64,000 bases of DNA from Fibrobacter sp. UWB4 (lineage in GTDB: Bacteria; Fibrobacterota; Fibrobacteria; Fibrobacterales; Fibrobacteraceae), in the NCBI RefSeq assembly GCF_002210345.1, contig NZ_MWQI01000006.1, positions 62,001-126,000 of the forward strand, given 5' to 3'. Of this stretch, positions 14,722 through 33,312 are shown in pieces. A model generated the notes under the pieces. That model did not search any database. It was not told where the DNA came from and saw only the letters and a program-made list of their open reading frames with translations. Numbering within the stretch: position 1 is the first letter of the stretch; each line of letters opens with the position of its first letter. The position numbers and the translations under genes were made by a program.

Positions 14722-17700
14722 CTATTCCACTCTACATTTTATCATGCTTTCATTGCAGGACGTGTAAAGGACGCGTTCACAGGGATTTTCACCTGCAAGG
14801 CAAAGACCCAGAGTGGCATCGTCGCATGTTCCGTTGCTGCACGTTGACGCGTTCGAGTTTGAACCAATGCCGTTGCCCCTTATCGTGATGTGGGCCTTTC
14901 TGTCGTCGCTTCGGCAATAGACATTTCGATTTTGCCACCCGTCAACTTTGATGAATACGGAATCGTTGCATGCGACATCGACGGTATTCCAGTCGCCCCA
15001 TTCATTGTGGCCTCCGAGCTGCTTGATGGTATAGCCAGCCGTTGTAACTTCCGTAAAGCATTCGTAATTGATCTCTCCGGCATTGACGTATATGGAATAT
15101 GTATTGGTGCCTGGATTGTCGGATACATAGATATCTTCTGATATGACACCTGTGTTGGACTTGCTTCCTCCGGCGATTCGTTGACCGTTCATACGAATTT
15201 GGATATCATAGCAGTTAACTCCCATGTATGTCCCGCTAATATTGACTTTGGATCCTGCAAGAACCTTGTTTTTACTGGTCTTGCAGTTAAATAAAGTGCT
15301 GTCGATGACATTTAACTTTGCTGAACATATTCTTTTCCCGCTTTTGGTGAAAAGCGTATAGGTGCCCGCTAAATTAGAGGTCTTGGATACAGGGATGATT
15401 TGCTCGGCATTCCTGTCGATCCATATATCTTCTGTCTTGAAGTTTGTTGATTGCAAGTAGACGTACATGCCGGATTCCATTCCGCTTGTAAAGTTTGCAA
15501 TAAAGTTGGCGGAGGTTTCATTGGGTGTGAGATCCTTTTCGAAACTGCATGTGGCCTTGATTTCAGCAGGGGCGCTAGAACTACTTTCTATCGGTACTGT
15601 CGTGGAACTGCTTACGGTCGTAGAGCTGCTAGATAATCCAGGACGTGTGACCGTGATGGACATCGGTCCGCAGGTGGTGACATTTTTTCCATTTAGAATA
15701 AGCTGTACTGTATAGATGCCCGAGGCGAGGTCTGCTGTGGGCGGCAGCTCGTGATCGTATTTGCTTCCATGGCCCTTGTGAACATGAGTTTCCTTGACCA
15801 CTTCACTGATGTTGTCGAGAAGGACTGCCTGCATTTCCCATTCTGTTTCTGCGGTTGCGGTCAAGTCTGCGGAAACCTTAGTTCCCGTTACCTTGCAATT
15901 CGAAACCTGGATGTTGTTTGATATGGTTGCTGTACCGCAATTTTTCTGGTTCCCGGAAACGGATATCTTGTATGTGTATTCTCCTGTTGAAAGAGCCGGA
16001 GACCATTCTTGCATTGCGCCGGTTCCATTCCCGGTAGCGGATGCTCTAGTGATTCCTTCGGAGTCTTCTGCTGTGAGTATATATTCGCAGCTTGAATTTG
16101 GACATCCTGTAAATCCGTATGTTAAAGTGACTTTGTCTGTCCCGCTCGTCGTTTCAGTCTTTTCGACACTGCATGTGATGTCGATGGGCGAAATTGTTAC
16201 GGGTTCCGTTGTGCAACTGACATATCCGCTATCAATGCTTTTGGCCCTGATTTCAAAAATGCGGGTTATTGCTGTCTCGCTCTTGTTGACTTGGTCGTAA
16301 AGCCCTTCTTCGTTGAAGGTGAATACGCCGTTTTCGGGGCAGGAAAGCTCGGTCATTTCTTCAATGGCTCCTCCAGATTCTTTTACAGAACAGCCATTGA
16401 TGGCCGCACCTTCCAGATTGGTGATGGTTGATGTCAGTCTCCAGGAAATTCCGTTGTATGTCGCCTTGCAGTTGCTGATGTTGAGAGCGTAAGGGCAAGA
16501 TGATAAAACGGAATTCACGTGGTAAGATGAATAGGTGCTTTTAAGGGTTATCGTCTGGACAAATTCTGGGTTGAACGAATCCAGGTTCGACAAGTCGTTG
16601 ACGTCAAAAGAATGTGTTCCGTTAGTTGTAATTTCTTTTGGAATGCTGAGGTTCCCGTTTTTGTCTTTTAAGTACAGTACGATTTTGTCGCCTTCTGCTT
16701 CTACGAAATCCGAAATCTCAATCAGCAAGATGGAACCACGTAGATTGACGATGCCTCCGTTTGCATCAACAGGTATTTCGAGTTCATCTTCTGAATAGCC
16801 GTATATTGGAGTGTCTGAATTGTAGATCTGTGCGTTTTGGGAGCAGCGTTCGATTTCACCGACCCAGAATGATCCGCAGCTTGTCCAGGTCCCTTCGAGG
16901 CTGGACTGGTCGGAACATTCTGAAATCTTGACTTTGGCATCGTTAATGGTTGTTGTTCCGTACGGTGTTGTATAAGATGTTCCGTGAACATCCTCTTCGG
17001 AGAAGTTGTATATAGATCCGCTAAGCTCTTTCCCAAAGAAGACTCCGTTTGCATCATGTTCGTTCCACCATGTTAAAAACCAGTTCCTGTTGAACTTGTT
17101 CCCTTCGCAGCCGGATGTTGCGTTGCCGGTCGCGTTGTCGCAGCCATTGTAGTAATAGGTTATTTTGCAGCCGTGGTCTTCAAACCAGCTCGAAAGCCCG
17201 ACCCACGGAGAAACATTTTTGTTCTTGGGAACGCGCCCGCCAAGGTAGTTTGCCTTGAACGAACAGTTGATTGTTGGGTTTTCAAAACAGTCGTCTGCAA
17301 AGAAGTAACTGCTCCAGCCGATATCGTAGATTTTGAAAGATGGGTCCGAAATGCTGAAACCGACATAGCGGCTGTGTTCATCGCGAGAACCCAGGAACGT
17401 TGAAATGTCCAGTTCGGCTGTGGCTGTGGAATTTTCGACGGTTGCCGTTATGGACAGCTTGTTTTCTATGGAAAGCTCAATCCATAATTTAATCATGTCC
17501 TCGGACCTTATCGAAAGCTTCTGTGAAGAAGATTTTTTCAAGACTGCGCTTGTGCAGTTGGTGCTCGTGACTGTATTTGATTGACTCGTTCCTTTGCAGA
17601 CTCGCGCTGTCAGGGCTTTGCTGTTGCTTGCGTCGCCAAAAATATTCAGGATGGTGTAAGAACTTGCTGAAGCGTCCGAGCTGAATATAAAGCCGGAACT

Positions 17701-20700
17701 CCATTTTTTGTTTGCGTTTTCAAGAATCGTTGTCTGCATCAGGGAACTCATGGTTCCGTGGATGCCCGCTTCTCTTGTGTTCAAGACGATTGTTGGATTG
17801 TCGTTTTGTAAGCCGTTGCTGAGTGTTATGGACCCATATTGAATTAATGGCGGAATACTTGCGCTATTTCCGTTGTTGGGGTACATGAGCTGCCAATCAG
17901 CATTGACGCCGGAGACGCTACAAGAATGGAGTTTCCCGCCTTCGCAGGAATTGATGCACTTTGTGGCGTTCCCGGAACAGAATGCCGTTAACGTTGTAAA
18001 GTCTTCGTAGAAACAATGCTTGTCCTTGTCGTTAAATACGGCGGTGATGGTATTGTTCGACGTTATTGGGCTAAGCGTATATTCATGGCCTGTTATGGAT
18101 TTCGATGCCGTTGCGCAGTTTTCTCCGTCGCATTCCCAACGCGAGAATTTGTCGGATCCCTGTTCTATATATTTTGTCTTGATTTTCCAGCCGGCATAAA
18201 CACTACAGACGATGTTGTCGTCGCTGTTCTTTTGACAGTAGCTTGAACTTGTAACGTCCGTGTAGTTGTCGTCATCATCGGCAAGCCAGATGGATACGCC
18301 GGAACCGCTAATTTCTGTGCCCTTTGTCTTTACGGTTAATGTATACCGCTTTCTTTTTAAAGAGGCGTAGAGCTTGTATTCTCCGTTTTGCTCGGCCTGC
18401 TGTATGGAATTGTTTTCTGTCGGCAGCAGAAGTTCGCAGTAGCTAGGGACATTGTTCATGTCCTTCAAGTGGATGGCCGTGTTTGTTGCGACGCTCCATT
18501 TGTTGTTTTCTGTTGTGACTTTTACGTTTGTTCCTACTGCGCGAACCCATTCTCCAGAGACGAGGTCGTCACAGTCGAGGTTGTTTGCCTTTTGGTCGTA
18601 TCCTTGTTCTGAACAGATTTGGCTGTTCTCGCTCTTGCTGCAATATTGGCCTATGCTGCCACGTTCTACCGTAACATAGCCTGTCATGGTGACGCTTGTT
18701 GAAGAGAATTGCTTGATAATGCAACCGCTCATCGGGGACCTGAGGTAAATCTTGACGCTGCCTTGCTCTGCTGTTGCGGTCGTGGAGACCGTAAACAATT
18801 CAATTGTAGGTTGGTTGGGCGTGAAGGTCAGCGTGTAAACATCTTCAATGTCGGAAGTTTCTCGCTTGACTAAAGAAGTTCCTGTGATTGGTGTGACATG
18901 CCACCCGCTGGGTCGGGCTGATACGGCAACGTCGATTGTTGCGGGGCTTGGGTGCGAAGACGTTTCAACAGATGCCGAAACGGTTAAGTTGCTGCTTGTG
19001 GTGATGTCTATGTATTCTTCCGGGAATCTAATGGCAGGGGAAGAACCTGTCTCGCCAGTGACGACAACATAGAAAGGAAGGTCGCCCGTTTCGCCTTGGT
19101 GCTTGCAATTGTAGACATCGTCTGCAAGCATGTTGCCGTTTTGGTACAGCAGTCCATAAGTATTTAACGATGGATCGCAAGTGATTTTAGAGGGGTCCTT
19201 TTGTTCGTGTGCGCCATTTAGGTTGACAATGTCGTAGTAGTCTATGAGTTTCCCGTCGGGATTTTTAGTCAGGTAAATAACACGGGGGAGTATTACCGCT
19301 GAAGGAGATATCGGTTGTGCGGCTGCATTTCCGGACGTCTCGATTTTTTCACGGCTGGCATATTGGGATTCCAGAGAGATGATGAGCTGCGGTGATGTGG
19401 CTACGTAATAGGAATCGTATTGTACGGATGTTCCTGAAATGACTGTTCCGCCTTCCTCTTCGTCTGTACCTTCGGAGAGCTTTGTGTATTCCGGGTTTTC
19501 TTTAATGATGCCTGCGTTTGCAAGTGACTTTAAAACGCTTCCGTCAAATTCAAGATTGTTGCCGCCCTGGTATTTTTTGAGCTTTTTCCCGTCGGCCATG
19601 ATAACGCTACCCTTGAAGTGGATGCCGTTAATTTCGTTTATATCTTCTTTGGAATAGACGAGATAGTTGTAGGTGGCTCCCTGGCGCCCTTTTAGCTGGC
19701 CTGAGGCCCCTTTTTCAAGATAAAGAAATACGATGCTTCCGTTAGATGTCGGTGGCAAATTTACGTTTCCAAGGGATGTGGTGACGTCAAAGACGAATTT
19801 ACCTACAAGCTCTTTATTGACCGATTTGTCTTCTTGATACTGCCATTCGATAATCAGGTATTCGTCGTTGTAGAGCTTGTTTTCCTTTTTGGCATTGACG
19901 TAGCACATGTTGAGTCTATCGATAAAGCTGTCGTCGATATAAAATTTTTTATTGAGTCCGCAGAATGTATTTGCTTTCGCGGCTTTCCATGCGGATTCAT
20001 TCTTTAAAAGAATGGGTTCTGGGATTCTATGCGTTGTCGGCGAAATCATCTGGCCGTGTTTATTCATTTTATTGATGTGTTCCCAATAATTCCCGCTGAC
20101 ATTTTTGAGGACGTTGTCTGTTGCGCTCCATTCCTGGATTCGTTCATTGGAAACTTCACTTGCGTTAAATGAGAAAATACGCGCTTGTCTACAGTTGTCT
20201 TCGTCATCGTTCTTGCAACGGTCCCTGTTGGCAAATGGGCGGGTCCATCCGTCCATATAGGCTCCGTAACTATAGCTGCTGTTTGTTTGCGTTTCGATTT
20301 CGAATTGATCGTTGTTGTAACGGTAGACTTTGCCGCCTACGGTAAAGACGCGTTTCCCGTTGTAGTCGCCGCAGTTGTTGTCGCCCGTATTGCAATAGGT
20401 TTTGATCTTGTATGGCATGTACAAATTTGCGCCGATCGCAAAATTTGTGTTGTTGTTTACATATCGTGTCAGTTCAAGCTGCTCGTTTCCGCCGTCAGGG
20501 GATGTATACTGATTGGTGAACACCCAGTTCAAGCCGACGTTGATGTCGTAGTCGTTCTCCCTGACAATTCTACCGCCGATAGTCAAGTTCCTGCTTACAA
20601 AAATTTTGCATAGTTGACTGATGTTGCCTTTTACATAAAGGTCTCCGTAAACCCTGATGGGTTGACCGTGTGGGCATGTGACATTCCCGCCAATGTAAAT

Positions 20701-21402
20701 GATGGAAGTGTCGATGCCTGTTGTGCCGTAGATGAGTTCACCATCGCTGTTTAGGTTTCCGCCGAGATAAAAATCTCCATAATGGTGGACTGTTCCGCCG
20801 TAATTTGCGTTGCCTGTGACAATCATGTCGCCTTTGACAACAGGGTTGTTGCTGTATGCCCAGTCGCCGTTGATGTTGCCTGAACCAATGGTGTCGTTAC
20901 CGGTGATGCCTTTGCTTGCGCCGTGGAAAGCCTTGTTGAATGTGAAACGCTCGCTGTTCTGGGGAATTTTTATACGGTAAAGCCCGTCCACTTTGAGAAT
21001 GGCGACTTCAGTGTGTTCTGTTCCGTTGCGGGAGGTTCCCTTTGAAACGAGCTTGAGCTTGTATGTGTTTTTCTCGGTGTTGACGCCGGCAAGCCAGACG
21101 TCGTAACTTTGGCCCGCGCGGTCTAATTGCGGCAATACGGAGTTTAAATGGATCGGCCGCTTGTTGTTTTCGAGATATTGCTTGATGACTCCGCCGACAT
21201 CGTTTGCATGGTTGGTCATCCAGGCGCGAGTGTTTTCGATGCCTGCTATAGCGCTTTGGTAAGCTTCTTGCCGTAACATTCTCGTTGCGCTAGAGCGGTT
21301 CTCTGATGTGAGCCATTTAAATGTCGCTGTTGCTGCGATTGTTGCAACAAGCATGAACAGAAGGACTGTTATTAAGGAAACACCTTTCTTGGACATAAAC
21401 AT
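14722..21402 (-). CDS. Giant PilX/GspK-like prepilin with 2200-residue ectodomain (copy A)
   Basis: A 2226-residue exported protein with a prepilin N-terminus: MFMSKKG, a predicted prepilin peptidase cut before VSLITVLLFM, then a hydrophobic helix. Position +5 is Thr, not the usual Glu, as in the tip subunits GspK/XcpX. After the pilin helix come a short PilX-like part (to about 145), a Gly-rich ladder of GD-Y-GGN repeats suggesting a small beta-helix (about 165-280), a long region without recognised family, a lectin-like (ConA/LamG-type) beta-sandwich candidate (about 1180-1370), and Cys-rich Ig-like segments with a Ser/Thr linker near 1920-1945. Many Cys suggest disulphides outside the cell. 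It starts 9 nt after the pilW-like gene and is paralogous along its length to the 24393-31607 gene. Inferred role: pilus-tip adhesin. The start at 21402 follows AAGGAGG; 21396 is possible. Confidence 0.75.
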   Translation of the reverse strand: MFMSKKGVSLITVLLFMLVATIAATATFKWLTSENRSSATRMLRQEAYQSAIAGIENTRAWMTNHANDVGGVIKQYLENNKRPIHLNSVLPQLDRAGQSYDVWLAGVNTEKNTYKLKLVSKGTSRNGTEHTEVAILKVDGLYRIKIPQNSERFTFNKAFHGASKGITGNDTIGSGNINGDWAYSNNPVVKGDMIVTGNANYGGTVHHYGDFYLGGNLNSDGELIYGTTGIDTSIIYIGGNVTCPHGQPIRVYGDLYVKGNISQLCKIFVSRNLTIGGRIVRENDYDINVGLNWVFTNQYTSPDGGNEQLELTRYVNNNTNFAIGANLYMPYKIKTYCNTGDNNCGDYNGKRVFTVGGKVYRYNNDQFEIETQTNSSYSYGAYMDGWTRPFANRDRCKNDDEDNCRQARIFSFNASEVSNERIQEWSATDNVLKNVSGNYWEHINKMNKHGQMISPTTHRIPEPILLKNESAWKAAKANTFCGLNKKFYIDDSFIDRLNMCYVNAKKENKLYNDEYLIIEWQYQEDKSVNKELVGKFVFDVTTSLGNVNLPPTSNGSIVFLYLEKGASGQLKGRQGATYNYLVYSKEDINEINGIHFKGSVIMADGKKLKKYQGGNNLEFDGSVLKSLANAGIIKENPEYTKLSEGTDEEEGGTVISGTSVQYDSYYVATSPQLIISLESQYASREKIETSGNAAAQPISPSAVILPRVIYLTKNPDGKLIDYYDIVNLNGAHEQKDPSKITCDPSLNTYGLLYQNGNMLADDVYNCKHQGETGDLPFYVVVTGETGSSPAIRFPEEYIDITTSSNLTVSASVETSSHPSPATIDVAVSARPSGWHVTPITGTSLVKRETSDIEDVYTLTFTPNQPTIELFTVSTTATAEQGSVKIYLRSPMSGCIIKQFSSTSVTMTGYVTVERGSIGQYCSKSENSQICSEQGYDQKANNLDCDDLVSGEWVRAVGTNVKVTTENNKWSVATNTAIHLKDMNNVPSYCELLLPTENNSIQQAEQNGEYKLYASLKRKRYTLTVKTKGTEISGSGVSIWLADDDDNYTDVTSSSYCQKNSDDNIVCSVYAGWKIKTKYIEQGSDKFSRWECDGENCATASKSITGHEYTLSPITSNNTITAVFNDKDKHCFYEDFTTLTAFCSGNATKCINSCEGGKLHSCSVSGVNADWQLMYPNNGNSASIPPLIQYGSITLSNGLQNDNPTIVLNTREAGIHGTMSSLMQTTILENANKKWSSGFIFSSDASASSYTILNIFGDASNSKALTARVCKGTSQSNTVTSTNCTSAVLKKSSSQKLSIRSEDMIKLWIELSIENKLSITATVENSTATAELDISTFLGSRDEHSRYVGFSISDPSFKIYDIGWSSYFFADDCFENPTINCSFKANYLGGRVPKNKNVSPWVGLSSWFEDHGCKITYYYNGCDNATGNATSGCEGNKFNRNWFLTWWNEHDANGVFFGKELSGSIYNFSEEDVHGTSYTTPYGTTTINDAKVKISECSDQSSLEGTWTSCGSFWVGEIERCSQNAQIYNSDTPIYGYSEDELEIPVDANGGIVNLRGSILLIEISDFVEAEGDKIVLYLKDKNGNLSIPKEITTNGTHSFDVNDLSNLDSFNPEFVQTITLKSTYSSYHVNSVLSSCPYALNISNCKATYNGISWRLTSTITNLEGAAINGCSVKESGGAIEEMTELSCPENGVFTFNEEGLYDQVNKSETAITRIFEIRAKSIDSGYVSCTTEPVTISPIDITCSVEKTETTSGTDKVTLTYGFTGCPNSSCEYILTAEDSEGITRASATGNGTGAMQEWSPALSTGEYTYKISVSGNQKNCGTATISNNIQVSNCKVTGTKVSADLTATAETEWEMQAVLLDNISEVVKETHVHKGHGSKYDHELPPTADLASGIYTVQLILNGKNVTTCGPMSITVTRPGLSSSSTTVSSSTTVPIESSSSAPAEIKATCSFEKDLTPNETSANFIANFTSGMESGMYVYLQSTNFKTEDIWIDRNAEQIIPVSKTSNLAGTYTLFTKSGKRICSAKLNVIDSTLFNCKTSKNKVLAGSKVNISGTYMGVNCYDIQIRMNGQRIAGGSKSNTGVISEDIYVSDNPGTNTYSIYVNAGEINYECFTEVTTAGYTIKQLGGHNEWGDWNTVDVACNDSVFIKVDGWQNRNVYCRSDDRKAHITIRGNGIGSNSNASTCSNGTCDDATLGLCLAGENPCERVLYTSCNESMIKCRVE

Positions 21403-21411
21403 AATTCCTCC

Positions 21412-22725
21412 TTAATCCTTTGTGCCATTGCTTGGAATGGGGATTATGAGCGAAAGAACGCTGGATTCGCCACGGACGCCCATGGTTAGCTCTAAACGTA
21501 ATGCCTTGACGTTCTTCTTTTCGATGGGTGCTATTTCTGCACCGCTAAATGTGTAATTTGCGGATTCGACTTTTTTAAGTACAACTTCGCTAAGCGTTAT
21601 TTTTCCGCTCCCGACTACGGGAGAGTAGCTTGCGAAAGTAAATGACATGCAGACGTTTTCGATTTTATGCATTGTTCTGAACCTGAACTTGCGCGCGCCT
21701 TCGGATGCTCCTGCATGTGTGGGCGGGTAGAACATGAAGTCGTTGATCTCGTTTGGACGCGCCCCGTCGTTTGTGTAGCGGAACCCGACTCCCATGTAGT
21801 CGCGACCTGGGCAGAATAGGCGGCTTGCGTCGCTGGAGTACGGCATTGAAAATGAAATTTCGTATTCCGTATTGGTTTCAAGAGTAATTTTCGCGCATCG
21901 CTCTTGCCAGTTGCCCGAAAGGTCGGTGGCCTGCGCAAGGAAAACCTGATTTGAGTTTCTTCCGTCGAGGACCGGTTCCTGATTGTCGAAATTGTAGTTC
22001 GATGCAAATCCGGATAAGACGACGCTTAAATCGCCATTGGGCGGTTCGACTTTTGTGAATGCCAGGTTGTCGTCGCCATAACGGGGGACCAGTCTGAATT
22101 TGTGGACGCTCGTGTCTGTGGATGGCAAAATGTGCGAAGTGCTTTCTGTCGCTCCTGGTTCGGCAGCTGTAATATTGAACCTTTGGACGCCTTCAGCCAT
22201 CTCGACGACGTTTGCGCTGCTGCTTGGGCATTGGTCTATATCCTCTGCTCCAGAAACGGTTTTGCATCCTCTCTTTAGGACGCTCCCATCGACATACCAG
22301 AAGATTGAATCGACGGCAACGTAGTGCCCGTCTTGATCGTAACGGATGCGTTTGTATATCAGCGTGTCTAGGTTGCCGTTGTTCCCGATGCGGTAAGACG
22401 AAGAGTCTTTTTGGGCATTGTCGGCGTTGTCGGGGTCAATAAACACATCGTGGATGTGGTCTGTGCTAAAGTTGTCCATTGAAGCGCCTGCGGCGGCGGC
22501 CTCTTGTGAACTTTTCGCTCCGAGTTGCGTAATGTCCTCTTTGAGTATGGAACTTACGTTGCCAGCGTTTTGGTTGGCCTGTAGCATGCTCTGGGTGCGG
22601 ACGCGCATCTTGGTGCTGTCGCTGAACGCCTGGCCTGCGATGAGAACGATTCCTCCGAGGAGAGCGATGTAGACCATCAGCTCGATGAGCGTAAAACCTG
22701 ATGACGCTTGGCTAAAATTCTTCAT
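21412..22725 (-). CDS. PilW-like prepilin with inserted lectin-like domain (copy A)
   Basis: A 437-residue type IV prepilin-like protein. The leader MKNFSQASSG is followed by FTLIELMVYIALLGG, with Glu at +5 and the cleavage Gly at 10. It has PilW features (RVRTQSMLQANQNAGNVSSILKEDI after the helix; WYVDGSVLKR in the pilin head). Residues about 235-385 form an extra beta-rich block with GNWQ and EYEISFSMPY, reminiscent of CBM4/9-type sugar-binding modules. The pilin-like strand KALRLELTMGVRG resumes after it. A GAGGGAAGAG ribosome site precedes the ATG. It forms an operon with the giant gene downstream. Confidence 0.8.
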   Translation of the reverse strand: MKNFSQASSGFTLIELMVYIALLGGIVLIAGQAFSDSTKMRVRTQSMLQANQNAGNVSSILKEDITQLGAKSSQEAAAAGASMDNFSTDHIHDVFIDPDNADNAQKDSSSYRIGNNGNLDTLIYKRIRYDQDGHYVAVDSIFWYVDGSVLKRGCKTVSGAEDIDQCPSSSANVVEMAEGVQRFNITAAEPGATESTSHILPSTDTSVHKFRLVPRYGDDNLAFTKVEPPNGDLSVVLSGFASNYNFDNQEPVLDGRNSNQVFLAQATDLSGNWQERCAKITLETNTEYEISFSMPYSSDASRLFCPGRDYMGVGFRYTNDGARPNEINDFMFYPPTHAGASEGARKFRFRTMHKIENVCMSFTFASYSPVVGSGKITLSEVVLKKVESANYTFSGAEIAPIEKKNVKALRLELTMGVRGESSVLSLIIPIPSNGTKD

Positions 22726-22990
22726 TCTCTTCCCTCGTAATCGTTTTAAGTCAATAGAAGTAAAAATATGTAATTATGATTACATTTTCTAAAATTAAAA
22801 ATAAGTTTTATGTATGTAAAAGTGATAAAAATTTCTTTTTTATTGTCTGATTTTGCGGTAAAATTGATGAAAATCAATGCTTTCTGGAATCTTTGAAGAT
22901 TTCTGTCAAAAAAATTCCACATTTATGTTTTTTTACATATATCCACCGCGTGTGGCCTTTTCATGTTTTTTTGAATTTATCTTTCTCCAT
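22726..22990. promoter_or_regulatory. Divergent regulatory region with two inverted repeats
   Basis: The 310-bp gap between the two divergent pilW genes is very AT-rich. It holds two perfect inverted repeats, each with a 4-nt centre: ATGTAAT-TATG-ATTACAT (22768-22785), about 43 bp upstream of the minus-strand ATG, and ATTGAT-GAAA-ATCAAT (22863-22878) near the middle. Both are plausible operator sites. No promoter for the minus-strand gene was convincing. Confidence 0.45.
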
Positions 22991-22999
22991 ATATATAAA
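22971..22999 (+). promoter_or_regulatory. Sigma70-like promoter of the plus-strand prepilin operon
   Basis: TTGAAT (22971-22976), a 17-bp spacer and TATAAA (22994-22999), giving a start near 23006 and a leader of about 30 nt. Confidence 0.6.
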
Positions 23000-23035
23000 T
23001 GAGTTGTCTTATTCCCTGTGTGGAATAGAGTTGGA

Positions 23036-24379
23036 ATGAGTATGATGTTTTGTTCTGTGGGTGATTTGTGCCCGAAATGTCGCCGTAAGGCGGGCTTTAC
23101 CTTAGTGGAATTGCTTGTCTATATGGCGATTCTTGGTGTTGTTGTCCTCGTTGCAGGGCAAGCTCTTACGGATAGTACAAGAGTTCGTGTTCGCACTCAA
23201 AACATGCTTGCTTCTTCGCAAAATGCAGAAAACGCGGCCAGTCTCCTGAAAGAAGATATCGCCCAGATGGGGGCGAAGGAATACGAAACAGATAAGTACT
23301 CTGGTTCATTTAATGTTGTCCGTGGTGTATTCATGGATCCTGACAATGCGGATGTCGATCAGGTGGATAAGTCTTCCTATTCGTTGCATCAGGGAAGTGG
23401 CGAATTTGACAGCCTGTACTTTAGGCGTATCCGCTATGATGATGATGGCAAGTATGTGGCTCTTGAAGCAGTCTCGTGGTATGTGCGCGATGGAGTCCTT
23501 TATCGCAGCTGTAAGCGTCTTGAAAGTGCGTCCGGGGCGGCTGCGGATGAATCCTGTCCTGACGACGGAGATCTGGAAGTCGCTATCGCAAAGGATATGG
23601 CGCGTTTCAAGGTTGTCCCGGCGAAGCCCAAATTGCTGAATTCCAGCACGGGCAAAGTCCTTTTCCCGCCTTCTGAAACGTCTTCGGATTTTCGTTTGCT
23701 TTCCCGTTACGATGGCAGCAAAATCCTCCGCTTGAACCTTGCTCCAGAGGAGGGCGGCAGCATTGTCAAGATTTCAGGTTTCACTTCGAATTTCGATGAT
23801 GAAAACGATTCTTACTCGACTGAAAATAAGATGAACCAGGTCTATGCCGCAGAGGCAAATTCTAGTGCCGGAAACTGGTCTAGCCTGTGTTCTGAAATGA
23901 CGTTTGCTCCAGGAATAGAATATGAAATTTCCTTTAAGCAGCCGCTTATGACGGGGACCGATTATTCGCAGTCTTTTATTCCGGGTAAAGATCATTTGTC
24001 TGTTGGTTTGCGTACAAAATCAGGTGAAAAAATAGCGGGCATTGATGATTTCCTGTTCTTGCCGCCGAACGATGAAAACTCTGCCGCCATTATTCGCAAT
24101 TTCCGATTTTCTGTAAACAATGAAATCAAGGCGTGTCTTGCTTTTACATTTGTCTTCTTCTCGCCGCTTGCAGAAAAAGGAACTTTGAATATTGCAAACT
24201 TGACGGTGAAAAAAATACAGGATGTGAATTACGAGTTTGATCCAAGTTATGTTCCTGATGTCTTGGACAAGAAAAATATTCGTGCGTTCTTTGTGGATCT
24301 GAGAATAAATAAGCACGGCGAACAAGGTGGATCAAAATACGTTTTTGCAACGCCGAGTAATGGTGCGGCAGCAGAGTAG
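23036..24379 (+). CDS. PilW-like prepilin with inserted lectin-like domain (copy B)
   Basis: About 447 residues and paralogous to the 21412-22725 product: LLVYMAILG, GQAL(T/S)DST, RVRTQ, the NADxxQ(V/K)DxSSY segment and the block with GNWS...YEISF are shared, so it too carries the inserted lectin-like domain. The prepilin cut lies in KCRRKAG before FTLVELLVYM, with Glu at +5. The leader is long (about 20 residues from the ATG at 23036), and has Cys residues (DLCPKC) that copy A lacks. The start is uncertain: a GTG at 23018 and ATGs at 23042 and 23045 are alternatives. The giant prepilin gene starts 13 nt after its stop. Confidence 0.8.
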   Translation: MSMMFCSVGDLCPKCRRKAGFTLVELLVYMAILGVVVLVAGQALTDSTRVRVRTQNMLASSQNAENAASLLKEDIAQMGAKEYETDKYSGSFNVVRGVFMDPDNADVDQVDKSSYSLHQGSGEFDSLYFRRIRYDDDGKYVALEAVSWYVRDGVLYRSCKRLESASGAAADESCPDDGDLEVAIAKDMARFKVVPAKPKLLNSSTGKVLFPPSETSSDFRLLSRYDGSKILRLNLAPEEGGSIVKISGFTSNFDDENDSYSTENKMNQVYAAEANSSAGNWSSLCSEMTFAPGIEYEISFKQPLMTGTDYSQSFIPGKDHLSVGLRTKSGEKIAGIDDFLFLPPNDENSAAIIRNFRFSVNNEIKACLAFTFVFFSPLAEKGTLNIANLTVKKIQDVNYEFDPSYVPDVLDKKNIRAFFVDLRINKHGEQGGSKYVFATPSNGAAAE

Positions 24380-24392
24380 TAGGGGTGTGTTT

Positions 24393-27300
24393 ATGCAGAA
24401 AAATTTTAAGCAGGGTGTATCCCTTATAACGGTGCTCTTGTTCATGCTCGTGGCAACGATTGCTGCTACGGCGACTTTTAAGTGGTTGAATTCTGAAGGC
24501 CGTTCGAGTGCTGCGCGCCTGATGCGTAGTGAAGCGCGTCAAGCGGCTTTGGCGGGCATTACATCTGCACGTACGTGGATGACGTACCACGGAAATGAAA
24601 CGGGGGCAATTATCCGGCAGTTCAGAGGAAACGGGCACAAGCCGGTTCATTTGAACAATGTACTTGGCAATAGTATTGATAGCGATAATCAAAAATTTGA
24701 TGTCTGGCTTGTCGGCGCTGAATCGAACTCGTCTCCATACACGGTGAAAATCCTTTCGACAGGTGAATCCCGTAATGGTACCAAGCACAGCGAAGTTGCG
24801 ATTATGAAAATTTCAGGGCTTTACCAGGTGAAAGTTCCCGAGAAAAAAATAAGCATCTCGTTTGATAGGGCCTTCTTTGGTAAAACCAAAGGTATTACTG
24901 GCGATGACGCGATGGAATCCGCCATTGTCAATGGTGATTTTGGCGAAGACAACAACGTTCCGTCGATTTCAAAACCCCTTTTGGTGACGGGCGATTTTTC
25001 GTTCCAAGGTTCTGCAAATATGGGCGGTGACTTGTATGTTGGCGGCAATTTCAGGAACAGGGGCAGTATTTATTTTGGAAATGTCGATATGGACAGGAAC
25101 TCCAATAACTATGCAAACTGCAAGGATCCTAATGCCAATGATGATACTCTTATTGTTTATATTGGCGGCTCGGTTGGTACCTGCGAAGGCGGCATTATTG
25201 CTGTTTGCGGAGACCTTTATGTAGGTGGAAGTGTCCCGCCGAATTGCGATGTCAAGGTTGCTGGTAATTTTACAGTCAATGGACACATGGAACGCGGTAC
25301 TGATGATAACTCAAAGGGTGTTGGCGTTAAGAAGAACATGGTCTTTACGGATAGGGCCAGCTGGACAAAGAACGAGATGAATTATTTCAGCAGTACCGGC
25401 GGCGGTACCGTTTCTTCGTTCAAGGTGGGAAATAATCTTGTCTTGCCTCCGACAATGAATGGCAAAATGGATTTGCAGAACAACTATTCGTTTGGCTTGT
25501 CTGGAAAAGTGATGAGCTATACCACAGCCAATACGATTTTGCTGAATCAGAATCAGGGATTTGGATATGGACAGAAGCCATATGGCGTATTTGTCGAGGG
25601 TACGACGGCTTTGGAGGCTATGGGGCCAAGACCTCAAGATAAACGATATTTCTCTTTTAGTGCGACGAAAGGCATAGAAAACCGTAGGGTGTCCAAGTGG
25701 AGTGAATCAGACCCGCTGTTAAAAGCGATTGGCGATGAATACTGGTCTCGCCTCAAAAAGATGTACACTTATCAGGGACTTATTGGCCCTGATGGTGAAG
25801 TTCCGGTGCCTATTTTGCTGAATAACGAAGATTTGTGGACTACGAAAACCATGAATAAGTTCTGTGAAATCGATACCGTGTTCAATATGGACGATAACCA
25901 TATTCAGAAGATCAATGAATGCTATGCGAAGGCGGGCGAAAATGAATTGTACAATGGTTTCTTGATCCTGGAATGGAATGAAATTGAAAAGGTGGACCCG
26001 ACTAAGGCCCTGGATGGCAAATTTGTCTTGTATGCGCGTTCGAAACTGGGTGACGGCCACATGGTCATGATGCCTGCAACGACTGAAAATTCCGTGGTCC
26101 TGCTATTTCTTGAATCGGGTGCCGGGTTGCTAAAGGGCGATGGCAATGTGATGAATTATTTCATCTATTCCAGAGGCGATATTGATGAAGTCCAGAAGAT
26201 GAATGTCGAAGGTTGCGTCATTATGGACAATGGCTCGACGCTTTTGAAATATCAAGGCCACAACAACTTCAAGTACAAGGCAGAAGTTGTCGAAGCCGTG
26301 CAATCAGCCGGGTTCATTATTGGAAACGAGGAATTTGAAAAGCTGGCCAATAAGACTAGTGGCGCTACGACGACATCGGGAAGCTCTGAATTGAGCGATA
26401 CGGTTTATGTCGCCGTCTCGTCCCAATTGAAAATTACGATAGAATCCGAATATAAAAATGAAGAATCTTATGGCGGCAATACAGAAAATGTGAAACCTTC
26501 GATTCTCATAATGCCACGAATTATCTATCTGCCAAGAGATGCTAAAGGCAGTCTTTCGGATTATTACAATGTCGTGAATTTGAATGGCGCGAATGAACAA
26601 AAGAATCCGAACAACGTGTCCTGTAGCCCAACGGGGCTTCCCGCTGTTGAGAAGTTTAAGCTGTATGGTACGACTCTCCCGCAGGACGTCTTTAGCTGTA
26701 ATTACACAAGCAATAACTATGAGAAAATGGGATTTTATGTTGTCGTTAGCGGTTCTGCTGGCGATGTCCCGGAAATTTCATTTGATAGGACTTCTGCTGA
26801 AATTACTAAGGGACATTCGGTCCTTGTGAATTTGCGATCCACAAAATCAAAGCCTGCGACGGTTGATATCTACCAGTCCCGTGAACCGGAAGGCTGGACC
26901 GTTACTGGGGCGACTCCCAAGAAGGAAAATGCGGATGGCTCTAAGCTATATACAATGCCTGTCTCCGGTAACATGACTGCATTCGAAGTGAAAATGGATG
27001 AAACCGCATCGGAGATGGGTTCTATAGAATTTCAGCTGGTGGAACCTTGTGAAAACTGTACGATTGCACCGGCAGGCCCGACAACAATGAGCGTTGTTGC
27101 TGAAGGTTCGTTTACGGTGGAACGTCGAGAAGTTGGAACGTATTGTAGCTTGCCGGAACATAAGGATGAGGATGCTTGCAAGCCGGGTGGTGAATTGCAT
27201 AATAAGATCCAAGCTCCAGATTGCGGAAGCCTTGTTAAGGACGGAGTTACGTGGGTAACCGCAGAAGGTGTTGGCTGCAATACTGATGAGCTGAACAGAA

Positions 27301-30300
27301 AATGGTTCTGTAGTATTTATATTACGACGCCGGTTACATTGAAAAAGTCTGATAGTTTCGATGATACTTATTGTGAAGTCATCATGCCGCCGAACAATAA
27401 GATCATTTCTGCAAAGAATGATAAGGAATACCTTTACGCATCGATAAAGCGTAAACAGTATAATCTGCATATCGAGTTTAACGGTGCCGAAAATTCTGGT
27501 AATTATGTTGATGTATCTTCTAAGACTGGCTTAAATGGGGAAGCCCGTAAAATTTATACATGCCGAAAAGGTGAAATTTGCGATTATCCGATTTATGCCG
27601 GCAACTATTATGAATTGAAGGTTGGTGATGATGCCGGGTCGGACCATTTTACGCATTTCTCGTCTGAACCGAGCAATGTCGCCAATGAAGGCCGTAGGCT
27701 TACAATTTATGCGTCGGATAGCTATTCTATCGTTGCCAATTATAACGACCACGATACTCATTGTTTCTACGAAGATTTCGCACCAGATGAAAATAATAAT
27801 GGATTTACAGCGTTCTGCGATAAGAGCGACGATTTTCCGCGCTGTATCGATGTGTGCTTTTCTAATCCAAATCCAGGACAGTCCTGCAAGATTTCAGAGG
27901 CTAAGCACTGGGCTGGACTCGAAGATGGCGCAAATCCCGACTGGGTGATGGTCTATGACAATAGGCAGGCGACATCTTCATGCCGTTGGGACTATTCATC
28001 GTGCAACTGCTCTACTGAAAATTATAAGGCTTGCCGTCTCCAGTGCAGAAAACGTGTTTGCACCACGGTTAAGTCTGGCGATCTTTTGGAACCTTCTATT
28101 TCGAACAACTACATTGCCGCTAATGCGGCCTCGGACGCTTCTGCGGAAGAGCCGAATGGCTCACAGAGTGTCATTCTCAATACGAAAGAAAATGGCAGCA
28201 ATGGTACGCTCACTTCCATTTTCTCTACAGCGATTATCGATGTCAATACGGTTACGAACGACTTTTCCAATTCAGGCTTTATCTTTAGATCGAACGATGA
28301 TGGCTCGGAATATTATTCCCTGAGCGTCTATGGCAAGCATGCGGGTGGTGCTTTCTCTCCGTATGTCTATGCAAAACTCTGCTATGTCAAGGGACAGACT
28401 GCCTCTGATGACGATGGCGCTTGTGTCGAAAGGTTTCTTTCTACGAGCGAATGGAATGTCTCGGAAACGGGCGGATTTACCAATTTGACAAAGATCGCCC
28501 TTGTCCTTAAAATCCAGAGTAATGTTGTTACTGCTGATTTGCAGCTCGATGGTAATTCTATTACAAAATCTTCAACTGAGTTTATGTTTGATCTTGGCGA
28601 ATTGTTTGGTTCGACGCTTTTGCTGAACGATGCCTTCCATGAACATTCTGGATTTAAGCTTTCGAATAAGGACTTTAAACTGTACGATATTTCCTGGTCG
28701 AATTCGGCTTATGGCGATAATGCCTGCTGGGATCATCCTAAGTTGGTCTGCTCATTTAAAACGAACTACCTGGGTGGCGTTGTCCCTCAGAATGAATATG
28801 TAACACCCTGGGTGGGCGTTAGCTCGTACACGATGAACAGCTATAAGAAATGCCAAATAAAGTATTATTACAATGGCTGTGACAATACGACGATGATCCG
28901 GCTAGTTCCGATGATGCCGAACTTTAATATGGGCTTGCTCTATCAGCGTTACCAGTGCTTTATGGGAAATGGCTTAGGCTATTATTGGGAAAAAGGCTCG
29001 GAAATTGAAGGCTCCAGCTATCGTTTTGCTACAGAAGGCAAACATGGCTATTATTATCAAGATATCGAATCGAAATTAGGCGGCTTTGCGATGGATGCGA
29101 AAGTCTCTCTGGAATGTCCTCCTAGTGTCAAGACAGAAGTGCCGTCATCGTTACTTGCTGTTCAGTCTTGTGGTGAATTCTATGTTGGCGATATTATGAT
29201 GTGCTCCAAGAATATTGATTTCTTGAATAGCACAGAAAATGTCGTCTGCACGGATTCCTGTAGTTTTGCCGTTTCAAATGAAGATGGCGTGAATGTCCGT
29301 AAATCGAAACTTTTGGTAGGACTGAACAATCCCAACAATTTCAATATGCGCATTTCGTTTACGGATAAGAAAGGAATCCTTTCCTCGTTCTATACAACTT
29401 CAATGGATGGAAATCTATCTATTGATGTGAACGGTATATCGAATGAAGATGGCTTTGATCCGCAGCATGTGATGCGTGTAAACATAAAGGTGATTGATGG
29501 TGGCTTTGTTGAATTGAACCAGCTGAAAACGAGCTGCCCTAACGCGCTTAGCATAAATTCTTGCAAGGTGCAGTATAATGGTACGTATTGGGATATTTCT
29601 GCAGATGTGAATAACGCGGATTACTGTACGGTTGAAAAGCCTGTAATATCAAACGCTGAATTTGTGGGGGGCAAGGAACCGACGGGCTGCCAAAAGACTT
29701 TCCGCTTAAAAGAAGAAGATCTGTATTCAAAAGATGACTTTGAACAAACTTATGAGTTTACGATTAAAGCTTCTAAAGGTACGGGGACGGACCAGGAAAA
29801 CGAGGAGTTTACATGCGATCCGTATAAACTGATTCCTCTTGAAATCGCCTGCAATATTGATGAAACGAAAAATACTGTCAAGCGTGGCGCTGGTGTCCCG
29901 CCTTTGAATATATCGTTTACGAACTGCCCCGAAGGTGGTTGCTCTTATTCGATTAGCTTTGAAGGTGAAAATGTCGCCAGCGGTAATACCAAAAAGAAGG
30001 GGTCTTCTGATGAAACCTACACGTTCAATGATCTGAATACACCGTCAAAAATGCTCCGCGCTGGTGAATACTACTTTACGGTTTCTTCGGGTGGAAAAGA
30101 AAATTCGGATTGTAGTTTTGTTGTCGAAGACGTTCAAGGAAAGGCTGAAGCTTCGAACTGTGTCATTGATGAAGATACGAAGGTGTTTACGGCAAAGGTG
30201 AATCTCCTTGAAGGCGAAAGCTGGTCCGGTCAGATTTATGTTACGGATCAGTTGGGTTTCCCGATTGGTGGCGCACAGCAAGTCTATGAAAACGAGACGG

Positions 30301-31607
30301 TTTCGGAAATCAGCGTAGATTTGTCCTCGGTGCCATTCTCCAAGGGAATCAATACAATTAAGTTTATTGTGAATGGCGACCTGAATGGAAGTCATGGGTG
30401 TGAAGCCCGCTATACGCCACCTGAGGAAAAGGATGATTTGGAACTGGAATGCCCTTCCCTCATTTCTGTTGACGGCTATAGTGAAACTTTTGAAATGACC
30501 CCTTCCAAGGTTGTAGGCTGCGATGATGGAAAGTGTTTCTGGAGTGTTTCTGGAGATGCTTTGATTTCCCCATCAAGTGGCTATACATCTGGCCCTGTTA
30601 CGGTTACGGAATCTTACGTGAGCAGCAGTAAGGAATATACGTTTACGTTGGGACACGAAGATCTTGAAAGCCGCAGCTGCCGCGTTGTTGTAGAAAGAAC
30701 TTCGGATTTTGAACTGGATTGCAATATTGCAACGCAAACGGATGTGGAGCCTGGAGAGACGATTAACGTTCAGCCTTATTCCGTAACAGGCTGCAATTCG
30801 AATTGCTCGTACCGTATAGAAATGCAGAATTCTTCTGGCTCTGATGATTACATCAGCGTGGTTGGAGGTTCTGGATCCAATTACAATGGCGAACGGATTT
30901 CCTTTAAGGGGGCAAATTCGGGTGGAACGAAGAGGTATCGATTGACGGTTACCGACGCGATGAATTCCTCGAAATCCTGCCTGTTCGATATTGTTTATGC
31001 GAATTCCGGATGTCGTTCGACTGGTGATGACTATTTGATTTCGTATGATAAAAAAGATGTATCGTTGAACAAGACTTTTGTCGCTGGCTGCCATGATGTC
31101 AAAATTGGCAAACTTTGTAAGAATGCCAAAATTGAGAAAGAAGCATGCCGTTGTGAAGATGGTATGCCTCATAAATTCAAGGTCAACGGGCGTGAAATTG
31201 AATGTGGAATTTACTTTGATAACACGATTCCGAATCAGCTGACCTTGAATATGGAAATTCCGGAAAATTGCTCGGTATATGGCGATATAAAACTGTACGA
31301 CTGTGAGTATGATCCGGATTATGTTGGAGTTGGTACAAAGTTGACGTATGAATTTGTTCCTTTTGGACCGGGGGCAAATGAAGTCTATACGGCGGCATTC
31401 AGCGCTGGCCATAAATTGTATTGCAATGTGGATCAGACGGAACCTTATGATCGCGTTGTCGGATCTATTGGCGATTGCGAGATTAGAATTCCTGCGTACA
31501 ACACTCGAAATTACGGTAGTGCTTGCGAACTTCTGGGTGATATGGATTATATCCTGAATATCAGTGAGGATGCTCCCAGCGATTTGACGTGCAAATTGGA
31601 TTGGTAA
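24393..31607 (+). CDS. Giant PilX/GspK-like prepilin with 2400-residue ectodomain (copy B)
   Basis: A 2404-residue prepilin-type protein starting MQKNFKQG with the cut before VSLITVLLFM; +5 is Thr. The hydrophobic helix is the same as in copy A. The same order of parts follows: PilX-like head, GD-YVGGN ladder (a small beta-helix candidate), the VYVAVSSQLKITIESEY region, Cys-rich segments, the lectin-like block (FKLYDISWSN..., CSFKTNYLGG, YYYNGCDN) and Ig-like C-terminal modules. Copy A and copy B align over nearly their full length but have diverged greatly. Copy B has extra Cys (CSTENYKACRLQCRKRVC) and lacks the Ser/Thr linker of copy A. I take the ATG at 24393 because it directly precedes the prepilin leader; the longer frame overlaps the upstream gene. 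Inferred role: exposed tip adhesin or enzyme-binding scaffold. Confidence 0.75.
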   Translation: MQKNFKQGVSLITVLLFMLVATIAATATFKWLNSEGRSSAARLMRSEARQAALAGITSARTWMTYHGNETGAIIRQFRGNGHKPVHLNNVLGNSIDSDNQKFDVWLVGAESNSSPYTVKILSTGESRNGTKHSEVAIMKISGLYQVKVPEKKISISFDRAFFGKTKGITGDDAMESAIVNGDFGEDNNVPSISKPLLVTGDFSFQGSANMGGDLYVGGNFRNRGSIYFGNVDMDRNSNNYANCKDPNANDDTLIVYIGGSVGTCEGGIIAVCGDLYVGGSVPPNCDVKVAGNFTVNGHMERGTDDNSKGVGVKKNMVFTDRASWTKNEMNYFSSTGGGTVSSFKVGNNLVLPPTMNGKMDLQNNYSFGLSGKVMSYTTANTILLNQNQGFGYGQKPYGVFVEGTTALEAMGPRPQDKRYFSFSATKGIENRRVSKWSESDPLLKAIGDEYWSRLKKMYTYQGLIGPDGEVPVPILLNNEDLWTTKTMNKFCEIDTVFNMDDNHIQKINECYAKAGENELYNGFLILEWNEIEKVDPTKALDGKFVLYARSKLGDGHMVMMPATTENSVVLLFLESGAGLLKGDGNVMNYFIYSRGDIDEVQKMNVEGCVIMDNGSTLLKYQGHNNFKYKAEVVEAVQSAGFIIGNEEFEKLANKTSGATTTSGSSELSDTVYVAVSSQLKITIESEYKNEESYGGNTENVKPSILIMPRIIYLPRDAKGSLSDYYNVVNLNGANEQKNPNNVSCSPTGLPAVEKFKLYGTTLPQDVFSCNYTSNNYEKMGFYVVVSGSAGDVPEISFDRTSAEITKGHSVLVNLRSTKSKPATVDIYQSREPEGWTVTGATPKKENADGSKLYTMPVSGNMTAFEVKMDETASEMGSIEFQLVEPCENCTIAPAGPTTMSVVAEGSFTVERREVGTYCSLPEHKDEDACKPGGELHNKIQAPDCGSLVKDGVTWVTAEGVGCNTDELNRKWFCSIYITTPVTLKKSDSFDDTYCEVIMPPNNKIISAKNDKEYLYASIKRKQYNLHIEFNGAENSGNYVDVSSKTGLNGEARKIYTCRKGEICDYPIYAGNYYELKVGDDAGSDHFTHFSSEPSNVANEGRRLTIYASDSYSIVANYNDHDTHCFYEDFAPDENNNGFTAFCDKSDDFPRCIDVCFSNPNPGQSCKISEAKHWAGLEDGANPDWVMVYDNRQATSSCRWDYSSCNCSTENYKACRLQCRKRVCTTVKSGDLLEPSISNNYIAANAASDASAEEPNGSQSVILNTKENGSNGTLTSIFSTAIIDVNTVTNDFSNSGFIFRSNDDGSEYYSLSVYGKHAGGAFSPYVYAKLCYVKGQTASDDDGACVERFLSTSEWNVSETGGFTNLTKIALVLKIQSNVVTADLQLDGNSITKSSTEFMFDLGELFGSTLLLNDAFHEHSGFKLSNKDFKLYDISWSNSAYGDNACWDHPKLVCSFKTNYLGGVVPQNEYVTPWVGVSSYTMNSYKKCQIKYYYNGCDNTTMIRLVPMMPNFNMGLLYQRYQCFMGNGLGYYWEKGSEIEGSSYRFATEGKHGYYYQDIESKLGGFAMDAKVSLECPPSVKTEVPSSLLAVQSCGEFYVGDIMMCSKNIDFLNSTENVVCTDSCSFAVSNEDGVNVRKSKLLVGLNNPNNFNMRISFTDKKGILSSFYTTSMDGNLSIDVNGISNEDGFDPQHVMRVNIKVIDGGFVELNQLKTSCPNALSINSCKVQYNGTYWDISADVNNADYCTVEKPVISNAEFVGGKEPTGCQKTFRLKEEDLYSKDDFEQTYEFTIKASKGTGTDQENEEFTCDPYKLIPLEIACNIDETKNTVKRGAGVPPLNISFTNCPEGGCSYSISFEGENVASGNTKKKGSSDETYTFNDLNTPSKMLRAGEYYFTVSSGGKENSDCSFVVEDVQGKAEASNCVIDEDTKVFTAKVNLLEGESWSGQIYVTDQLGFPIGGAQQVYENETVSEISVDLSSVPFSKGINTIKFIVNGDLNGSHGCEARYTPPEEKDDLELECPSLISVDGYSETFEMTPSKVVGCDDGKCFWSVSGDALISPSSGYTSGPVTVTESYVSSSKEYTFTLGHEDLESRSCRVVVERTSDFELDCNIATQTDVEPGETINVQPYSVTGCNSNCSYRIEMQNSSGSDDYISVVGGSGSNYNGERISFKGANSGGTKRYRLTVTDAMNSSKSCLFDIVYANSGCRSTGDDYLISYDKKDVSLNKTFVAGCHDVKIGKLCKNAKIEKEACRCEDGMPHKFKVNGREIECGIYFDNTIPNQLTLNMEIPENCSVYGDIKLYDCEYDPDYVGVGTKLTYEFVPFGPGANEVYTAAFSAGHKLYCNVDQTEPYDRVVGSIGDCEIRIPAYNTRNYGSACELLGDMDYILNISEDAPSDLTCKLDW

Positions 31608-31677: not shown

Positions 31678-33312
31678 TTACTTGATGATGAGCATGGAAT
31701 CGTCCCAAGCCTCGTGCTTTTCGAGGCCGAGGAGGTTCGCCGTCGTTGCTGCGATGTTCGACAGACCCCAGTCGCCTTCCTTGAGGCCGAGCTTGCCGCC
31801 AGTGACGTTATCGTAAAGGATGCACGGCACCTTGTTGAGCGTGTGGCTCGTCTTGGCCTTGAAGGAACCGTCCTTGTTGACCTTCGGCATGCCGGTCTTC
31901 TTGTCGATTTCGTACATTTCGTCGGCGTTACCGTGGTCAGCCGTGATGATGGCAACACCACCGAGGGCGTCGATCACCGGGAGGAGTCGTGCGAGGCCGA
32001 TGTCCACAGCTTCGATAGCCATCGTAGCAGCGCGGAAGGAACCGGTGTGGCCCACCATGTCGCCGTTCGGGAAGTTGCAGCGGAGCGTCTGGTACTTCCC
32101 GCTCTTCAAGGCTTCGATCATGGCGTCGGTGATTTCGGCAGCCTTCATCCACGGGCGCTGTTCGAACGGAACAACGTCAGATTCGATTTCGAGGTAGGTT
32201 TCGCCGTCGAACTTGCTGGAACGGTTACCATTCCAGAAGTAAGTGACGTGGCCGTACTTCTGCGTTTCGGAGCAAGCGAACTGCTTGACGCCCGTTTCAG
32301 CGAGCCATTCGCCGCTGGTTTCCTTGATGGCCGGAGGCGGCACGAGGAAGCGGTTCGGGAGCTTGAGGTCGCCGTCGTACTGGAGCATGCCAGCGTAGCA
32401 GACGTGCGGGAAGCGCTTGCGGTCAAATTCATTGAAGGATTCTTCTTCGAAGGCGCGAGTGATTTCGATGGCGCGGTCGCCACGGAAGTTGAAGAACACC
32501 ACGGAGTCGCCATCGTTGATGGTGCCGACCGGAGCGCCGTCCTTTGCAATCACGAACGGCGGGAGGTCCTGGTCAATAGCCTTGGTTTCGCCACGAAGGG
32601 TTTCGATAGCCTGCGTAGCGTTGTCGAAGTAGCGGCCTTCGCCGAGCACGTGGGTCTTCCAGCCGAGTTCCACCATCTTCCAGTTAGCGTTGTAACGGTC
32701 CATGGTGATCTGCATACGTCCACCGCCAGAAGCGATGCAAACGTCGAATTCCGGAGAGCGGAGTTCGTCGAGGAACTTTTCAAATGGGCCGACGTAATCG
32801 AGAGCGGAGGTTTCCGGAACGTCACGACCGTCGAGGAGGATGTGAACGCGAACCTTTTTGACGCCTTCCTTCTTGGCCTGAGCAACCATGGCCTTGAGGT
32901 GAGCGATGTTGGAGTGGACGTTACCATCGCTGAAGAGGCCGATGAAGTGGAGAACGGTGTTCTTTTCACGAACGTTGCCGGAAATTTCCTTCCAGGCATC
33001 GCGGCCGAAGATGTCGCCGCTGTTGATGGCGTCTGCAACGAGAGCTGCACCCTGGTTGTAAACCTGGCCAGCACCGATGGCGTTGTGGCCGACTTCGGAG
33101 TTACCCATGTCTTCGTTGGTCGGCATGCCCACGGCGCGGCCGTGAGCCTTCAGGAGGACGTTCGGGTACATCTTGAAGAGGTTGTCGAGAGTCGGGGTGC
33201 GGGCTGCCTTGATGGCGTTGCCTTCGACCTTATCGGTGATACCAAAACCGTCCATCACGATCGTGACAACGGGTCCCTTGATGCCAGGGAAATTGGAAAG
33301 CTTCTTGAGCAT
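31678..33312 (-). CDS. gpmI: 2,3-bisphosphoglycerate-independent phosphoglycerate mutase
   Basis: A 544-residue alkaline-phosphatase-superfamily enzyme interconverting 3- and 2-phosphoglycerate in glycolysis, with Mn ions. Seen: VTIVMDGFG near the N-terminus (first metal Asp), the catalytic Ser in NSEVGHNAIGAG, LLDGRDVPETS, the GDSVVFFNFRGDRAIEITRAF segment, and metal sites VGHTGSF and TADHGNADEM. The length is typical (510-550 aa). An AAGGAG ribosome site lies upstream. It is a convergent neighbour of the giant prepilin gene; the dPGM gene gpmA lies directly upstream but behind its own terminator. Confidence 0.95.
   Translation of the reverse strand: MLKKLSNFPGIKGPVVTIVMDGFGITDKVEGNAIKAARTPTLDNLFKMYPNVLLKAHGRAVGMPTNEDMGNSEVGHNAIGAGQVYNQGAALVADAINSGDIFGRDAWKEISGNVREKNTVLHFIGLFSDGNVHSNIAHLKAMVAQAKKEGVKKVRVHILLDGRDVPETSALDYVGPFEKFLDELRSPEFDVCIASGGGRMQITMDRYNANWKMVELGWKTHVLGEGRYFDNATQAIETLRGETKAIDQDLPPFVIAKDGAPVGTINDGDSVVFFNFRGDRAIEITRAFEEESFNEFDRKRFPHVCYAGMLQYDGDLKLPNRFLVPPPAIKETSGEWLAETGVKQFACSETQKYGHVTYFWNGNRSSKFDGETYLEIESDVVPFEQRPWMKAAEITDAMIEALKSGKYQTLRCNFPNGDMVGHTGSFRAATMAIEAVDIGLARLLPVIDALGGVAIITADHGNADEMYEIDKKTGMPKVNKDGSFKAKTSHTLNKVPCILYDNVTGGKLGLKEGDWGLSNIAATTANLLGLEKHEAWDDSMLIIK

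Follow-up and report, generated by a model that had tools for sequence, protein, structure and literature searches.

The HIJK minor-pilin tip complex of type IVa pili and type II secretion (FimU-PilV-PilW-PilX; GspH-I-J-K) has a capping K subunit, usually of a few hundred residues, that has been described as lacking the glutamate at mature position 5 (Glu5; PMC10191384, PMC9934059). PilY1/PilC, which is not a pilin but a distinct protein carrying a beta-propeller, is a large tip adhesin proposed to crown the type IVa pilus via the minor pilins. It is established that additional modules can be grafted onto tip pilins (PMC8179133, PMC9934059) and that a beta-solenoid can be carried by a GspK-like pilin (PMC6561018). 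The modular pilins PilB and PilC of Streptococcus sanguinis, both with Glu5, bear Ig-like and ConA-like lectin modules on a pilin for which a tip position has been proposed (PMC8179133, PMC9934059). The most extreme modular pilin in a published survey (PMC8179133) measures 860 residues; that survey used the signature IPR012902, which giant proteins without Glu5 such as those described here would probably escape. ComZ of Thermus thermophilus, a GspK-like pilin of 554 residues that is a proposed tip protein, has a large beta-solenoid set between the final two strands of its pilin sheet and lacks a lectin/Ig arm (PMC6561018). The tapirins of Caldicellulosiruptor mediate attachment to cellulose, as stated in the title of a work that PMC7571853 cites.

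Four Fibrobacter papers (PMC3079729, PMC4704652, PMC4668043, PMC6851124) list, in the parts available, ordinary pilins and hold no description of the giant prepilins presented below. A text search of the literature for giant or very large pilins returned nothing further, with most subscription papers lying outside its reach, so that prior notice is possible.

Two divergent pairs of prepilin genes

In the window (the whole stretch of 64,000 nucleotides that was analysed, from Fibrobacter sp. UWB4), two divergent two-gene units, each made up of a PilW-type prepilin gene followed by a giant prepilin gene, lie between pheS and gpmI:

13607..14629, minus strand: pheS (phenylalanyl-tRNA synthetase alpha), flanking gene (Pfam)
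14722..21402, minus strand: giant prepilin A (K subunit, 2226 aa), start MFMSKKG^VSLITVLLFMLV (ORF; Pfam PilX_N; orthologues)
21412..22725, minus strand: PilW/GspJ-like prepilin A (J subunit, 437 aa), GFTLIELMVY with Glu5 (Pfam N_methyl, 22 bits against a cut-off of 21.2)
22726..23017, no strand: AT-rich intergenic region between the divergent units, with no convincing invertible element
23018..24379, plus strand: PilW/GspJ-like prepilin B (J subunit, 453 aa from GTG), GFTLVELLVY with Glu5 (weak NCBIfam gspJ and TIGR02599 matches)
24393..31607, plus strand: giant prepilin B (K subunit, 2404 aa), start MQKNFKQG^VSLITVLLFMLV (ORF; weak NCBIfam GspK match at the N-terminus)
31678..33312, minus strand: gpmI (phosphoglycerate mutase, BPG-independent), flanking gene (Pfam; synteny)

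The first-pass annotation had described two head-to-head units, pilW-like gene then giant gene, paralogous in both genes, whose giant products combine a normal prepilin N-terminus with ectodomains of about 2200-2400 residues. Its coordinates were right and the four ORFs were confirmed; identity is 39% between the two PilW-like proteins and 46% between the giants over their first 330 residues, and the giant products, of 2226 and 2404 aa, have a prepilin leader and N-terminal matches to PilX_N or GspK. The genes for prepilin A and giant A are separated by 9 nt, and the giant A gene has a clear ribosome-binding site (AAGGAGG). Judged from relatives, prepilin B is likely to start at an ATG at 23036-23045 rather than at the mechanically assigned GTG; a start at the listed GTG (24327) would place giant B in overlap with the gene before it, and the ATG at 24393, giving 2404 aa, is the likely start. 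A search for an invertible switch between the two units gave only short AT-rich repeats. The genome (3.58 Mb, 18 contigs) contains two copies each of the PilW-like and the giant gene, all of them in the window.

Elsewhere in the window, beside pheS, a Poly_export/SLBB gene adjoins a mannose-1-phosphate guanylyltransferase-type gene (10892-12028 and 12050-13429; Pfam), which suggests a capsule or exopolysaccharide locus, and a 665 aa protein encoded at 43658-45655 (plus strand) contains a carbohydrate-binding domain of the Cthe_2159 type with a strong score (PF14262, 208 bits) and is possibly another polysaccharide-binding protein.

The leader of the giants reads ...KKG^VSLITVLLFMLVATIAATAT, and Gly at position -1 of a class III prepilin leader is found in 99 of 99 distinct giants, with a hydrophobic helix in the model of giant A. 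Mature position 5 is T, A, V or M in the same number of distinct relatives (99/99; Thr in giant A) and never Glu, and Glu5 is present in all H, I and J prepilins scored; both window PilW-like proteins have it within their N-methylation motif. Family models recognize little more than this N-terminus. Giant A matches Pfam PilX_N marginally (25.7 bits, cut-off 25.5) and giant B shows no match to that model at E 1; against NCBIfam GspK the two score 19.7 and 14.8 bits (cut-off 130), with alignment confined to about residues 6-68, so that they are K-like by placement and not members of the GspK equivalog. Beyond the N-terminus, no further Pfam or NCBIfam family reaches its cut-off in the ectodomains. 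The assignment of the giants as PilX/GspK-type minor prepilins with enormous ectodomains, and of their partners as PilW/GspJ-type minor prepilins, is supported.

Distribution, operon context and history

A giant relative was found in 95 of the 111 genomes of the family Fibrobacteraceae that were searched (53 of the 56 of good quality), which places the observation far beyond chance. Giants above 1,800 aa range from 1,829 to 3,195 residues (median 2,381), whereas K subunits of the HIJK complex have a few hundred. A scan of GTDB genomes with an alignment-based query yielded 69 loci, while the same scan with giant A alone gave no match; no phage relative of the giants was found. The named matches come from records assigned to Fibrobacter, to Fibrobacteraceae or otherwise to Fibrobacteria, F. 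intestinalis ATCC 43854 among them, together with two Bacteroidales-labelled contigs; these two (L101 and L143, labelled as Bacteroidales MAGs) carry typical Fibrobacter giants and are probably mis-binned. The J-K unit is ordinary within Fibrobacteraceae and unusual beyond.

J lies immediately before K in all but one of 99 distinct modules, the exception being cut by a contig edge. Among the 82 distinct modules treated as assessable, all of which have 3 kb or more of upstream sequence, the spacing between J and K is -76 to +17 nt in every case (82/82), and the arrangement is H-I-J-K in 43, I-J-K in 11 and J-K alone in 28; H matches GspH/FimT-type models and I matches PilV or GspI. The order H-I-J-K, the adjoining J and K, the K subunit without Glu5 and the presence of pilus machinery (see below) are thus shared with the HIJK tip complex, but in Fibrobacteraceae the J-K pairs are multiplied and in some genomes lie apart from H-I. 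This is the case here: the window has J-K alone, and the sole H-I pair of the genome is found on another contig (G000:C10:110346-111354), so the two J-K pairs share one H-I pair. The two-gene unit of the first-pass annotation therefore stands for the window, while about half of the assessable modules have four genes. Just upstream of the H-I pair, the same contig encodes a secreted protein of 1970 aa that has MBG_2 repeats and a weakly matching sorting domain at its C-terminus (L161:3501-9413).

The divergent layout is not a defining feature: of 14 multi-copy loci read, nine are tandem and five, counting the window, are divergent, and single-copy modules occur elsewhere, so a functional role for the head-to-head arrangement was rejected. 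Several modules in relatives adjoin gpmI or pheS, and in one genome (G090) two H-I-J-K operons (L076 and L130) are divergent on one contig. In two loci, L082 (8113-15013; 1562 and 796 aa) and L039 (747 and 516 aa), the giant gene is broken into overlapping frames, possibly by frameshifts or assembly errors.

The A and B lineages form separate clades (support 100/99 and 100/100) with members in other species, which makes the duplication old; a recent origin was rejected on the same grounds. Another genome with a divergent pair (G063) has as the partner of B a giant from a clade other than that of A, which indicates that cassettes have been exchanged at this site. Co-evolution of J and K over all pairs is weak (Spearman 0.26; nearest neighbours agree in 59 of 95), and strict pairing is for that reason not claimed. 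Divergence is uneven along the giants. Giant A is mostly 55-80% identical to three orthologues up to about residue 1650 and 15-40% identical beyond residue 1800, a steep change that covers the distal ~400 residues; giant B, whose orthologues in three genomes are 68-69% identical over the full length, shows a milder drop (83% to about 52%), and the distal ~100 residues are of a different type in the two paralogues. The pattern is that of a conserved stalk bearing a variable head.

Relatives of 510-720 aa occur in Fibrobacterota beyond the family, with a prepilin-like start and, where visible, the end of a J-like gene upstream; their match is confined to the solenoid region (profile ~206-343 and 468-621). 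Four loci from another family of the phylum (L192, L194, L195, L198) encode prepilin-like solenoid proteins of 510-530 aa, in one case as two adjacent copies. In the simplest history that we infer, a ComZ-sized K made up of pilin and solenoid gained some 1,500-2,500 residues in Fibrobacteraceae.

Predicted architecture of the giant K proteins

AlphaFold models of giant A were built in two parts (residues 1-1128 and 1129-2226) from 67-sequence alignments, with mean pLDDT of 85.1 and 80.5. In the first half a pilin module and a beta-solenoid are followed by Ig-like domains, one of them Calx-beta/cohesin-like (787-910); in the second, a lectin-wing-like sandwich is followed by FnIII/Ig-like domains, a Ser/Thr linker at about residue 1930, two sandwiches and an end of low confidence. 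The main parts are:

20959..21402, minus strand: pilin module, residues 1-148, with class III signal, helix 10-78 and antiparallel sheet 99-145 (AlphaFold)
19468..20955, minus strand: beta-solenoid, residues 150-645, with a partly helical insertion (AlphaFold; best structural match 4wa0)
17296..18018, minus strand: ConA-like lectin-wing-type beta-sandwich, residues 1129-1369, beginning at a conserved HCFY motif (6eks match)
15634..16491, minus strand: tandem FnIII/Ig-like domains, about residues 1638-1923 (Z 10-11 to fibronectin three-domain fragments)
14725..15765, minus strand: variable distal region, residues 1880-2226 (orthologue identity; low model confidence at the end)

The best structural match of residues 154-641 in VIA-align is 4wa0 (Z 13.3, rmsd 4.4, 305 of 358 residues), a Caldicellulosiruptor adhesin domain that we take to be the C-terminal domain of a tapirin. 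The only other solenoid among the matches listed reached Z 7.0, and repeat folds can yield high Z. The likeness is structural only: a sequence profile of the solenoid domain did not retrieve 4wa0, and the tapirins have no detectable sequence similarity to the giants. The 6eks lectin wing aligns to residues 1129-1369 with Z 10.5 and rmsd 3.7 over 171 residues (VIA-align). Both matches are resemblances between a predicted fold and a known one, and no proof of binding. PDB sequence searches with the giants gave weak solenoid matches at most, and Foldseek on the multi-domain models of giant A had unspecific Ig-type chains among the matches listed; ComZ was not among the fold matches listed, which excludes nothing.

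Judged by models and fold matches, giant A thus combines a pilin module with extra domains that are not pilus-specific, and shares with the modular pilins adhesive modules of Ig-like and ConA-like lectin type grafted onto a pilin, but the giants carry these on K, without Glu5, and are several times longer. With ComZ they share a GspK-like pilin and a large beta-solenoid, although the solenoid of giant A comes after the modelled sheet. Carbohydrate-binding modules are not claimed: weak matches to CBM64 are confined to 3 of the 64 distal regions and those to CBM_4_9 to 2 of the 42 J proteins, and none turned up in 19 distal regions that were inspected directly. More than 60% of the giants keep about 50 Cys columns, which fits an oxidised exterior.

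A probable tip complex with a giant adhesin, and its alternatives

We consider it likely that the locus encodes a type IV pilus tip complex whose K subunit is a giant multidomain adhesin, with tip location, ligand and export as predicted elements. By their sequences, J and K are prepilins in an operon-like layout that in many relatives is part of H-I-J-K, with K lacking Glu5. K has reached 2,000-3,200 aa of stalk-like and lectin-like domains, and probably turns the pilus tip into a long adhesive arm. The tip-adhesin reading of the first-pass annotation fits best, and can now be sharpened to a giant that is the K of H-I-J-K, without Glu5 and with a variable distal end.

The prepilin peptidase and type IV pilus genes that such a reading presupposes are both present: the genome has one prepilin peptidase, a PilB with a cyclic-di-GMP motif, a PilT adjoining PilC, PilM, a PilQ-type secretin and a PilA-like pilin. 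A second secretin cluster, on contig C5, gives some room to the proposal that the giants are K-type pseudopilins of type II secretion, which at the pseudopilus tip would recruit or push cellulases; GspK is the closest NCBIfam model, and expression of the type II secretion genes of Fibrobacter increases on cellulose (PMC4668043). We regard this as unlikely. The C5 cluster has small prepilin-like genes of its own (about 328, 158 and 126 aa, although only one matches a family), which leads us to assign the giants to the type IVa pilus; a periplasmic pseudopilus needs no arm of 240-260 kDa, and in the loci read no secretion gene adjoins J-K.

Large proteins with Ig repeats are often cell-anchored adhesins, and the giants might accordingly be surface or periplasmic structural proteins with a prepilin-like leader that act outside pili, for instance as envelope-anchored adhesins, a reading left some space by the fact that pilus processing and assembly of the giants are predictions. 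It is decidedly improbable: the coupling of K to J is strict and extends to H and I in half of the modules that could be assessed, and Glu5 is lost exactly in K, all of which indicates assembly into a filament. A further reading, in which the giants are DNA-uptake receptors whose pilin module and beta-solenoid would crown a competence pilus, draws on the precedent of Thermus ComZ (PMC6561018) and on the about ComZ-sized relatives outside the family, which match in the solenoid region alone. It is most improbable: more than 1,500 further lectin-like and Ig-like residues and a fast-changing distal end are not explained by DNA uptake.

On the preferred reading, that of a pilus tip complex, J and K would both be cleaved by the prepilin peptidase; H and I, encoded on the other contig, would join them in an initial complex within the inner membrane that caps the pilus as it forms, and the giant K would then be pushed through the PilQ secretin (a putative export of a chain of more than 2,000 residues) and form a long arm of many domains at the tip. 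The conserved part of this arm (pilin module, tapirin-like solenoid, lectin-like and Ig-like domains) would serve as base and stalk and may contact carbohydrates, and the variable distal domains would carry the particular specificity. The arm may do the work of PilY1 in other type IVa pili, with which it would share its place on the pilus, although here the arm is part of the K pilin itself. PilY1 (PF05567) was found in none of 168 genomes of the phylum, but no control genome matched either, so its absence is not established; the C-terminal beta-propeller of PF05567 had no match in the giants.

The most likely function is predicted to be attachment to plant polysaccharide, after which PilT would retract the pilus, and a plant cell wall ligand is plausible from the modelled tapirin-like fold, the lectin-like domain and the lifestyle of the genus. 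The two anciently diverged J-K pairs would let one kind of pilus carry either of two tips. Alternative specificities had been suggested for the two modules and are retained in this form; a distinct pilus for each module is less likely, since the genome has a single H-I pair and a single main machinery for type IV pili. It is possible, though we lean somewhat against so full a claim, that this capping pilin is the long-sought fibre adhesin of Fibrobacteraceae: an arm of 200-350 kDa replacing PilY1, with a tapirin-like cellulose-binding base, a lectin-like domain and fast-evolving, exchangeable end modules, in which multiple J-K cassettes set substrate specificity on one shared pilus.

At about three times the length of the largest modular pilin in the published survey (860 residues, PMC8179133), the giants would stretch the cargo of a type IV pilus tip, and the relatives of 510-720 aa in other Fibrobacterota may show the states before and after an adhesin grew on a pilus. 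Fibrobacter is a main cellulose degrader of herbivore guts. Pilins have been implicated in its hold on plant fibre (PMC4668043, PMC6851124, PMC3079729), and a near-universal, family-specific giant tip protein would bring concrete genes to the question of fibre attachment.
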